Shown one piece after another: positions 37,330-41,204 of a stretch of DNA of 41,204 nt; the first letter of the stretch is position 1, and each line of letters begins with the position of its first letter. The notes under the pieces were generated by a model, which made no database searches, was not told the DNA's origin, and saw only the letters and a list, made by a program, of their open reading frames with translations. The translations under genes and the position numbers were made by a program. The stretch lies in the NCBI GenBank assembly GCA_021797675.1, contig JAJZZH010000207.1, positions 1 to 41,204 on the forward strand, given 5' to 3'. The stretch comes from Bacillota bacterium. GTDB lineage: Bacteria > Bacillota > Sulfobacillia > Sulfobacillales > Sulfobacillaceae.

Positions 37330-37563
37330 TCAGGAGGGGACTCCTAGCGCTCGGTCAAGACGGGGCCGGTTGAATCCGATGACGACCGTACCGTTGACAT
37401 CGACGACGGGAACGCCGGTTTGGCCCGATTTCCTTTGCAGAGCTTTCAAACCTGCCTCGGATTTGGTGACGTCGACCTCGGTAAAGGGAATCCGGCGCTC
37501 TTTCAAGTAATGCTTCACCGAACGACAATGTGGACAGGTGGGGGTGGTGTAGACCGTAACCAT
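37330..37563 (-). CDS. Mini-glutaredoxin (NrdH/YruB-like)
   Basis: 77-residue thioredoxin-fold protein. The redox motif CPHC lies at 10-13 in TPTCPHCRSVK, followed by the cis-proline strand GQTGVPVVDVNG and the C-terminal VVIGFNRPRL, all typical of stand-alone glutaredoxin-like proteins. It begins one base after the DUF302 stop codon, with GAGGAGG inside the end of that gene. Likely reduces protein or low-molecular-weight disulfides, or handles persulfides, as part of the thiol operon. Confidence 0.88.
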   Translation of the reverse strand: MVTVYTTPTCPHCRSVKHYLKERRIPFTEVDVTKSEAGLKALQRKSGQTGVPVVDVNGTVVIGFNRPRLDRALGVPS

Positions 37564-37564
37564 G

Positions 37565-37966
37565 TTATTGCGCAGCCTCCTCTACCGCTTCATGTAAAAT
37601 GGCGGTCACCTCGCGCGCCAAGCCGTCTAGGGTGGGATGACCCGCTAAATTGAGCAAGGCCACCGGGTCGGGCAGACCCAAGGTGGTCTTGCCAGTTTGG
37701 CGGTCCACGTAGACGACGAGCTTGCAGGGCAGAAAATACCCAACGGTTTGTGTGACCCGTAGAGCCTCTTTCGCCCGGGGGGCAGAACATACCTCGAGCA
37801 CGTGAAACGGCGGCTCAGGCTCTAGGCCTTTTTGAACGAGCTTTTCGTTCATGTCCAAGTGCCACAGCACGCTGAACTGGCGTCGGTTCAGCGCGTCAGT
37901 CACGGCTTCAATCGCCGATTCAACGGATTTTTCGGTGGTCACTGCATAGGTTGCGGATGGCGTCAT
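37565..37966 (-). CDS. DUF302-domain protein
   Basis: 133 residues. SVESAIEAVTDALNRRQFSV at 14-33 and the middle part with FHVLEVCSAPRAKEAL and VGYFLPCKLVVYV fit the DUF302 family. Two cysteines (in EVCSAP and LPCKL) are conserved-looking. The family has no settled function but is often found with sulfur-oxidation and persulfide-handling genes. AGGAGG stands just before the ATG. It lies between the CsoR-like regulator and the glutaredoxin in one operon. Confidence 0.83.
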   Translation of the reverse strand: MTPSATYAVTTEKSVESAIEAVTDALNRRQFSVLWHLDMNEKLVQKGLEPEPPFHVLEVCSAPRAKEALRVTQTVGYFLPCKLVVYVDRQTGKTTLGLPDPVALLNLAGHPTLDGLAREVTAILHEAVEEAAQ

Positions 37967-38047
37967 CAGGTAACCTCCTCACGATACCCATATCGCGGCT
38001 GGAACTGACCGCGGTCAAGGGTTGGCATCCTGTTGGGCTGGTCCAGG

Positions 38048-38344
38048 TTATGTCTTCCGGCCCAGCACCCGGTCAATCACGTCGCGGACAGAGCTCAGGT
38101 CCCACTCGATAGTCTGGTCGAGTTGCATCATGTTTTCGGCCATGCTGCAGGCTTCCAACATGCGTGCCACTTTGCCCAGCGCTCCGTGTACGGCCGCCAC
38201 CTGGGTGAGAATGTCGTGGCAGGTGTCGTGCCGTTGGACCATAGCTTCCAGACCGCGGATCTGTCCTTCAATGCGGCGCAGGCGATGCAGCAAGTCCTGC
38301 TCTTTGAGAGCAACCGGCGCATTGATTTCTCCCATGGCACTCAC
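38048..38344 (-). CDS. CsoR/FrmR-family (DUF156) repressor
   Basis: 98-residue all-helical repressor that binds DNA until a metal, persulfide or aldehyde modifies it. HRLRRIEGQIRGLEAMV is the diagnostic helix and CHDILTQVAAVHGALGKV the second helix with the N-terminal Cys42. In copper sensors a His and a Cys follow at +25 and +29 from this Cys. Here the only later Cys is Cys66 at +24 (EACSMAEN) and the +29 region has no Cys. The copper ligand set is therefore absent, so a thiol- or persulfide-based switch is more likely given its neighbours. The start may be the GTG at 38344 or the ATG three codons later. Confidence 0.88.
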   Translation of the reverse strand: MSAMGEINAPVALKEQDLLHRLRRIEGQIRGLEAMVQRHDTCHDILTQVAAVHGALGKVARMLEACSMAENMMQLDQTIEWDLSSVRDVIDRVLGRKT

Positions 38345-38400
38345 TCACTTCCCGCACATGACACGCTCTTGCGTAAAGCCATCGCTGCCGACGCCATCCG

Positions 38401-39048
38401 CTAGGCCCCGAGGGCCTCGCGGATCGTGCTGATTAACCTCGACTCCGGCACCGCTCCCGTAACGGACTTGCTGCCGTTGACGACCGTCATCGGCACGCCC
38501 ATAACGTTGAACTTATTCGAAAGCCTGGAAAACGTCGACGCATCCACCATGTCGGCCACCACGTGGCTCGGGTTGACCCGCGCCATCTCCTGCGCCAAGC
38601 GCACCGCTCGCGGACAATATGGGCAGGTCGGCGTGACAAAGACCTCGAGGTGCAGGTTGCGGTCGAGCGTAATGAGCCACAGCCTGGTCTCATCGCTGAG
38701 CTCGGGCGGGACCTCCACCGACACCGCTCGGATGGTATCGACCAGCGCGCCGAATTCGTGGCCACTGGGAATACCAAGGTATCTCATCCCGGTGAACTGC
38801 TCGTCCATCCACAGCTCGGCAATCGGTCCTTCGATGTCGTCGGGGTCTTCGGGAGCGAAGGTCGGAGCTTGGCCGGCCATCTCCTTCAGCTGGAGATGGC
38901 CATTGAGTCCGGCCAATTCTCGCCACAGGTCGCGCATGGTGTCGGCGGCAGGGCCGCCTCGCCCCGGGTAGAAGCGAATTTCCACCGGTTTGGCCAAGGC
39001 GTCCCAAATTTGCTGAATCTCTTGCTGAACTTGGCTCGACAATAGCAT
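38401..39048 (-). CDS. PDO-like protein disulfide oxidoreductase (two thioredoxin folds)
   Basis: 215 residues, arranged as two tandem thioredoxin/glutaredoxin units like archaeal PDO and the glutaredoxin-like domain proteins. The C-terminal unit has an active-site CPYC in EVFVTPTCPYCPRAVRLAQE and a cis-Pro strand NVMGVPMTVVNG. In the N-terminal unit the place of the CxxC (RFYPGRGGPAADTM) has no cysteine, so only one redox centre remains. GAGGAGGG precedes the ATG. First gene of the thiol operon, about 250 bp downstream of a near-consensus promoter. Probably exchanges protein or persulfide sulfur in the cytoplasm. Confidence 0.87.
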   Translation of the reverse strand: MLLSSQVQQEIQQIWDALAKPVEIRFYPGRGGPAADTMRDLWRELAGLNGHLQLKEMAGQAPTFAPEDPDDIEGPIAELWMDEQFTGMRYLGIPSGHEFGALVDTIRAVSVEVPPELSDETRLWLITLDRNLHLEVFVTPTCPYCPRAVRLAQEMARVNPSHVVADMVDASTFSRLSNKFNVMGVPMTVVNGSKSVTGAVPESRLISTIREALGA

Positions 39049-39300
39049 CGTGAGCCCTCCTCGTATCCTAAAGTCGACGGGTCAAGTCGACGGACGATGT
39101 GCGCGGGCCGGAGATCCGCCAGCACTGGGCGGATATATCGAAAGGGGGCCCGCTCGCCTAACGGTCCAAAGAGAAGCGTCCCGACCCGGGTAATCGGATC
39201 TATCGTCGCTAAATATGCCCCCGGGGCACTTCGGCTCGCCTGTTCCCCCGCGTTCCCGCCGCGATGGGCGCTTCCCATCCGGACCCAGCACTCTAGGGGA

Positions 39301-39329
39301 ATTATATACCCCCGGCCGTATACAGTCAA
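39301..39329 (-). promoter_or_regulatory. Near-consensus sigma-A promoter with candidate CsoR-type operator in the spacer
   Basis: On the minus strand: TTGACT (39329-39324), exactly 17 bp, TATAAT (39306-39301). The spacer holds an inverted repeat TATAC-N8-GTATA (39305-39322 on the plus strand) with C/G-rich centre CCCCGGCC, similar in style to CsoR-family operators. A bound repressor would block polymerase directly. It is about 250 bp upstream of the PDO-like gene. Confidence 0.7.
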
Positions 39330-40234: not shown

Positions 40235-40429
40235 ATGACTCCACATACTGATGATTGGTTCACGCTCCCAGAGGCGGCGCGGCTGTGGCACGTGTCGGAT
40301 CCGGCGCTACTCCGCCAACGGATTGGGCGAGGCACGCTCACCGCCCGGAAAGTTGGACGCGATTGGCTGGTCCATCGGGAAGAAATGGCACGCGTGTTTG
40401 GGCCACCGCCCATGAAGGATAGTCGTTAA
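40235..40429 (+). CDS. Small helix-turn-helix protein (excisionase/MerR-like)
   Basis: 64 residues. The segment FTLPEAARLWHVSDPALLRQ followed by RIGRGTLTARKVGRDWLVHR matches the excisionase-type winged HTH (L-x-E-A-A-x-L-x-V-S ... R-x-G-x-L-x-A-x-K-V-G-R-x-W). No ribosome binding site is obvious. Its TAA stop shares a base with the ATG of the TnpB-derived frame (TAATG), indicating coupled translation. It could be a truncated IS607-type TnpA head (HTH without the serine-recombinase domain) or an independent regulator captured beside tnpB. Confidence 0.6.
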   Translation: MTPHTDDWFTLPEAARLWHVSDPALLRQRIGRGTLTARKVGRDWLVHREEMARVFGPPPMKDSR

Positions 40430-40925
40430 TGCACATTCTTGCGCGGCAACCGATCCCGAAAGGGATGCATCTGGCGTGGTCGAAGCACATGGTCAAAACC
40501 CAACGGCGCATAGTGCGGCTGCACGCGCGCATCGCAAACATCCGGGCGGATGCCTTGCACCAACTCACGACCGATCTCGTCGAACGGTTCGATGTCATCG
40601 CCATCGAGGACCTGAATGTGGCCGAAACGCGCAAGAATCATCGGCTCGCCCGCGCCATTGCGGATATGGGGTTTGGCGAATTTCGCCGCCAACTCCAATC
40701 CAAGGCGGCTCAACGCGGGAAAACGGTGGTGGTCGTGAACCGTTGGTATCCGAGCAGTAAAATCTGTTCCGGTGTGGATACAAAATGCCGAAAATGCCGC
40801 TCGCGGTGCGGGAGTGGACGTGTCCGCAGTGTCAGACCCATCATGACCGCGACATCAACGCGGCGATCAATTTACGCCTAGTGGCCGAGAGTTCGGTGAG
40901 GGGCTCCTCACCCGTGTCTGCCTAA
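40429..40925 (+). pseudogene. TnpB-derived gene, N-terminally truncated and frameshifted
   Basis: Starts KHMVKTQRRIVRLHARIANI, continues RFDVIAIEDLNVAET (RuvC-II Glu) and [15 protein letters not shown], the first half of the zinc ribbon. Near 40772 one base is lost or gained; the correct frame then gives [20 protein letters not shown] with the second CxxC and the RuvC-III Asp, ending at TAA 40923. The WED/REC region and RuvC-I Asp are missing, so a nuclease is impossible even without the frameshift. It most likely derives from an IS605/IS607-type TnpB. Confidence 0.75.
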
Positions 40926-41033: not shown

Positions 41034-41204
41034 GGGAATCCCCACCACGGCCCGACAGCATGGGGACAACCGCCGGTAGAAGGGAATCCCCACCACGGCC
41101 CGACAGCATGGGGACAACCGCCGGTAGAAGGGAATCCCCACCATGGCCCGACAGCATGGGGACAACCGCCGGTAGAAGGGAATCCCCACCATGGCCCGAC
41201 AGCA
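41034..41204 (+). repeat. 48-bp tandem repeat, 3.5 copies to the window edge
   Basis: Units at 41034-41081, 41082-41129, 41130-41177 and a partial at 41178-41204; only one C/T difference (CCACGG versus CCATGG) is visible. Each begins GGGAATCCCC, has a CCCCA/TGGGG stem, and continues GGGGACAACCGCCGGTAGAA. Since 48 is a multiple of three, both strands stay open, but a coding role has no other support. There are no variable spacers, so it is not a CRISPR array. The array continues beyond the window. Confidence 0.9.

Follow-up and report, generated by a model that had tools for sequence, protein, structure and literature searches.

The window analysed here, a stretch of 41,204 nucleotides that forms an entire contig of a 4.06-Mb Sulfobacillus-type genome, carries a small operon of thiol genes together with a CsoR-family repressor devoid of the copper ligands, and the question raised by this locus is which signal such a repressor responds to. 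The four genes are co-directional on the minus strand and encode a PDO-like protein, the repressor, a DUF302 protein and a CPHC glutaredoxin (Grx), with intergenic gaps of about 65, 81 and 1 nt (Table 1). The initial annotation had proposed this four-gene operon and named its products: coordinates and strand match, and the Pfam and NCBIfam profiles agree (DUF302 at 4e-14, Glutaredoxin at 9e-19). It had also described a PDO-like protein with one CPYC and a lost N-terminal CxxC, and this description holds: the CPYC lies in the second thioredoxin fold and GRGGP stands at the position of the first-fold CxxC (CQYC in 1a8l and 1j08). Since a PDO has a CxxC in each of two thioredoxin folds, the protein is PDO-like only; it matches PDO_seleno_TRX at 7e-50 over the full model length and under the curated cut-off, scores 169 bits against the cut-off of 185 of TIGR02187, and has AhpF-like models next in rank. 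For Grx, comparison of two genus members that are sister species showed that 28 of 78 codons differ without any amino acid change (100% identical proteins), and therefore that at least this gene is under strong selection; its neighbours are 80-90% identical between the same species. Elsewhere in the window, the remnant of an IS605-family element (40235-40881) contains two ORFs, one short and helix-turn-helix-like, the other of OrfB/TnpB type with a Cas12f1-like TNB domain and an apparent frameshift towards its end, and a 48-bp tandem repeat (3.6 copies, 99% alike) occupies the contig end at 41034-41204.

Table 1. Features of the operon and of its upstream region (positions in the window)
Feature	Position	Strand	Basis or remark
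Promoter TTGACT-17-TATAAT, putative operator in its spacer	39301..39329	-	Same design in loci L116 and L117
Putative operator, 18-bp CsoR-type inverted repeat TATACGGCCGGGGGTATA	39305..39322	-	Fills the promoter spacer
Leader of about 250 nt, promoter to first gene	39049..39300	-	Rhodanese-MBL-rhodanese genes instead in L117
PDO/AhpF-N-terminus-like double thioredoxin fold, single CPYC	38401..39048	-	Pfam/NCBIfam; comparison with 1a8l/1j08
CsoR-family repressor, Cys39 and Cys63 (+24), without His+25/Cys+29	38048..38335	-	ATG start
DUF302 protein, two Cys	37565..37966	-	Pfam
Glutaredoxin, YruB/NrdH-like, CPHC	37330..37563	-	Pfam/NCBIfam; codon comparison

The repressor belongs to the CsoR/RcnR family (DUF156, PF02583) both by its score, 69.1 bits against a gathering score of 22.8 for PF02583 (4e-19 for Trns_repr_metal), and by the three-helix fold of its predicted model (helices 7-34, 39-72 and 80-93; pLDDT 87.8), whose closest structure matches include CsoR and FrmR, with helical bundles matching widely. 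Its two cysteines are Cys39 and Cys63 when counted from the ATG, or Cys42 and Cys66 from the GTG at 38344, as numbered initially. Alignment with InrS (5fmn), the best solved sequence match, is ungapped: Cys39 takes the conserved first position, the second cysteine, Cys63, is at +24, and the residues at +25 and +29 are Ser and Asn, in keeping with the earlier reading of a second Cys at +24 and no His(+25)/Cys(+29) pair. The protein presents neither the Cys/His+25/Cys+29 ligands of copper-sensing CsoR nor the CstR arrangement of two cysteines at a +29 spacing without the copper His. A one-residue register shift of helix 2, which would bring the Cys at +24 onto His+25, was rejected because the alignment is ungapped and because the Glu at +28 is in place in InrS and CstR too. 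The repressor is most aptly classed as a variant of the CsoR family that carries a Cys-x23-Cys pair and probably works in a CstR-like way. It is one of three CsoR-family proteins encoded by the host genome: that on contig C81 is of the Cys/His/Cys type and its gene adjoins a copA-like gene, and that on C198 is a Cys+24 paralogue encoded near DsrE2, a thioredoxin-like gene and a GcvH/LbpA-like lipoyl carrier; an HdrB homologue is found on C135.

The cysteine pair is a conserved property of a clade. When 18 diverse proteins of the order, sharing 35-90% identity with the window's repressor, are compared, Cys39 and Cys63 are among only 11 invariant columns, and positions +25 and +29 vary. The Cys+24 proteins of Sulfobacillales form one group (support 100/99.7) in a tree of 152 rows and only 79 columns, and a profile of the clade searched against 398 genomes of the phylum gave 113-132 bits for its members and at most 72 bits for all else found. 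Other Bacillota also possess Cys+24 proteins without Cys+29, and the test of an origin shared with those of Sulfobacillales (AU p 0.467) leaves one or separate origins possible. In two loci of these other Bacillota (L207 and L217), the Cys+24 csoR is divergent from a gene for a 4Fe-4S dicluster protein, and one or two operator-like sites lie in between or close by. In the open-licence literature we found no description of a Cys-x23-Cys CsoR or of an sHdr locus with a CsoR gene.

What these regulators control was approached through loci gathered around CsoR genes, not around sulfur genes: 55 of the Cys+24 type and 20 of the Cys/His/Cys type, the latter drawn partly from other orders within the class. 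Sulfur markers, counted as one or more rhodanese, MBL, DsrE2, Hdr, lipoyl-carrier, PDO, Grx or DUF302 genes, occur in 37/55 Cys+24 loci versus 1/20 Cys/His/Cys loci, and copA, within about 4 kb, in 0/55 versus 17/20; the Fisher p values for this split, 4e-14 for copA and 9e-7 for the sulfur markers, ignore the relatedness of the loci. No recognised sulfur gene is nearby in the other 18 Cys+24 loci. Eight loci of genus g8 (L131, L144, L146, L147, L173, L179, L180, L184) have a Cys+24 csoR with an upstream operator-like site and without recognised sulfur neighbour; the copy in L131 is the first gene of a series encoding CAP-domain and alpha/beta-hydrolase proteins. Sister genera possess a fuller operon (L036/L117), with rhodanese, MBL-fold hydrolase and rhodanese genes ahead of the PDO-like, CsoR, DUF302 and Grx genes; in the genus of the window these first three genes are absent from this position, where the leader takes their place. 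By similarity to glyoxalase II and sulfur dioxygenase models, under their curated cut-offs, the MBL protein may have persulfide dioxygenase activity; no MBL-fold gene was found elsewhere in the host genome, a weak negative as this genome is 97% complete. The leader gave no Rfam match as an RNA element, and its derivation from the rhodanese/MBL genes of L117 was dismissed for want of convincing similarity.

The region upstream of the operon provides a second line of evidence. Positions 39301-39329 read as a perfect sigma-70-type promoter, for which the chance expectation is 0.01 even with one mismatch allowed, and the inverted repeat in its spacer matches TATACS-N6-SGTATA exactly, as nothing else in the 4.06-Mb genome does. 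Against 1-3 expected, the Cys+24 loci contain 59 sites of the form ATAC-N8-GTAT, and 51 of these lie immediately upstream of marker genes; the smaller sample (152 kb) of Cys/His/Cys loci contains 3. The fifth, unconstrained base is a C in 75 of 82 half-sites, and therefore the consensus is ATACC-N6-GGTAT, from which the window's site departs in one half-site (ATACG). This consensus is identical to the published site of ScCsoR, a proven sulfane-sulfur repressor (PMC7533328), and the combination of sulfane-sulfur genes with a predicted operator of this type, characteristic of CstR regulons, is found here at the level of sequence. Another operator-like repeat, TACSGGTAYNGGT, occurs upstream of DsrE2-Hdr operons in 9/12 cases (upstream of DsrE2 in L122, L124, L134, L137, L138, L140, L142, L143 and L145), its pattern being derived from those same sequences; these operons neighbour the other Cys+24 branch.

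A genome-wide search for exact sites extended the predicted regulon of the host to a rhodanese gene followed by a CoA-disulfide reductase-rhodanese fusion (C206) and to a tandem rhodanese pair, preceded by the arrangement TTGACG-operator-TATTAAT (C220); among the other exact sites of this genome, 4 of 6 are without evident target. Some of the sites predicted for the repressor could be bound by its C198 paralogue. In genome G004, exact sites precede rhodanese-DsrE, TauE/rhodanese and DsrE-SQR genes and another rhodanese gene. One of these loci (L258: rhodanese, DsrE, LysR, molybdopterin oxidoreductase) corresponds, by gene order only, to TPY_0110 to TPY_0113 of S. acidophilus TPY, in which the rhodanese TPY_0110 was expressed at 66.4 RPKM on sulfur versus 3.9 on FeSO4 (PMC5114278). 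This difference would fit derepression by sulfur, other causes being possible; no regulator is mentioned in the S. acidophilus TPY sulfur-metabolism paper. At another place in G004 (L261, 2545-3928), an exact operator-type site precedes the gene of a protoglobin-MCP chemoreceptor, possibly linking sulfur sensing to taxis.

A pair of conserved cysteines could also serve a general thiol-redox switch responding to peroxide or disulfide stress, in which a Cys39-Cys63 disulfide would form and the regulon would consist mainly of thiol repair (Grx, PDO/AhpF-like), sulfur genes being only a part of it. The Cys+24 proteins of other Bacillota, which adjoin AhpC/AhpF, thioredoxin or iron-sulfur/FAD redox genes, speak for such a role, as does Thermus TTHA1953, which loses DNA binding with H2O2 or Cu(II), shows no NaHS response, yet controls sox genes (PMC10318464). 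The predicted targets in Sulfobacillales, however, are mostly rhodanese, DsrE, TauE, SQR and MBL genes and not peroxidases, and we consider this explanation unlikely. Copper sensing was rejected on the neighbourhoods and on the ligand residues. That Cys39 and Cys63' would bind copper or another metal as two thiolates in place of Cys/His/Cys draws on the family itself, on the ability of two cysteines to bind Cu(I) and on the abundance of copper in acid-leach habitats; it is very improbable given that copA is missing from every Cys+24 locus and that a distinct CsoR of the Cys/His/Cys type accompanies copA in this order. Lastly, an FrmR-like formaldehyde sensor has in its favour that FrmR is among the closest solved structures and, far below cut-off, among the NCBIfam hits, but no formaldehyde-detoxification genes were recognised among the identified neighbours of the examined loci and the second Cys would be left unexplained, which makes it scarcely credible.

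Gene context, conservation of the two cysteines, and the motif and placement of the operator are direct observations, and together with the predicted regulon they favour sulfane sulfur over copper, in agreement with the sulfide/persulfide-responsive operon suggested initially. The repressor is thus probably a CsoR-fold sensor of sulfane sulfur (persulfide or polysulfide) controlling a multi-operon regulon. We infer its binding to the predicted sites, its ligand and its sensing chemistry, as follows. The reduced repressor would occupy operators of the ATACC-N6-GGTAT type, placed inside promoters or adjacent to them, and block transcription; at 39301-39329, its occupancy of the -35/-10 spacer would block RNA polymerase. 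Sulfur oxidation would raise cytosolic sulfane sulfur, Cys39 and/or Cys63 would react with it to give a persulfide, a disulfide or a polysulfide bridge, and the reacted repressor would leave DNA, turning the regulon on; such release from DNA by sulfane sulfur has been reported for CstR, ScCsoR and YrkD (PMC9918477, PMC7533328). In the host, the regulon would comprise the operon of the window, the rhodanese with the CoA-disulfide reductase-rhodanese fusion and the double rhodanese; in relatives, it would add the MBL-fold hydrolase, a TauE sulfite exporter, a type-III-like SQR and DsrE proteins.

The chemistry depends on geometry. Cys39 lies at the start of helix 2 and Cys63 24 residues further on the same helix, and therefore they can be in contact only across subunits. 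In a helical-wheel estimate made by hand, Cys63 points in part away from Cys39', +24 being off the helix face of His+25/Cys+29; this register makes a CstR-type cross-subunit bridge less certain, and it may not form. The Cys42-Cys66 tri- or tetrasulfide put forward in the initial annotation (Cys39/Cys63 here) thus concerns residues that are invariant in the clade, the bridge itself being conjectural; bridging by a long polysulfide, separate persulfides and a shifted start of helix 2 are each possible. More tentatively, and with some doubt, Cys-x23-Cys might constitute a second sulfane-sulfur geometry of the CsoR family, with a chemistry unlike the cross-subunit polysulfide bridge of CstR, and the paralogues of Sulfobacillales with their two operator types might coordinate detoxification (rhodanese, MBL and Grx genes) with the energy-yielding sHdr pathway (DsrE2-HdrC-HdrB-HdrA, LbpA). 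The novelty is in the variant sensor geometry and the coherent predicted regulon, not in a new kind of system. These results predict by which regulator, through which operator and over which regulon Sulfobacillus-type bioleaching acidophiles would control sulfane sulfur, and they provide a natural experiment on how the ligand of the CsoR scaffold may change through one moved cysteine.

Compared with known members of the family, the window's repressor has in common with the metal sensors CsoR and InrS the fold and the first Cys; these have the His+25/Cys+29 pair, which it lacks, and its clade is never beside copA in the loci examined. TTHA1953 of Thermus thermophilus is alike in having two cysteines and in being a CsoR-family regulator of sulfur oxidation, its host being a sulfur-oxidising thermophile (PMC10318464), but it differs by its Cys39/Cys68 spacing (+29), its operator TACNNTACNNNNGTANNGTA and its sox targets, none of which adjoins its own gene. 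With CstR (S. aureus; S. pneumoniae 7mq1-7mq3) and B. licheniformis YrkD, the repressor shares the CsoR fold, the conserved first Cys, a second Cys and the absence of the copper His, and their targets, rhodanese, TauE, SQR, DsrE and dioxygenase genes (PMC9918477, PMC10318464), overlap with the predicted regulon; the second Cys is at +29 in CstR and at +24 here, where +29 is an Asn and variable in the clade, so that Cys-x23-Cys stands against the Cys-x28-Cys of CstR, ScCsoR and YrkD. Finally, ScCsoR (SCO0620) of Streptomyces coelicolor, which responds to polysulfide and represses persulfide dioxygenase, rhodanese and sulfite transporter genes (PMC7533328), differs by its Cys37/Cys66 pair (+29) and by persulfidation on Cys37 only, while the operator consensus ATACCn6GGTAT is common to both.
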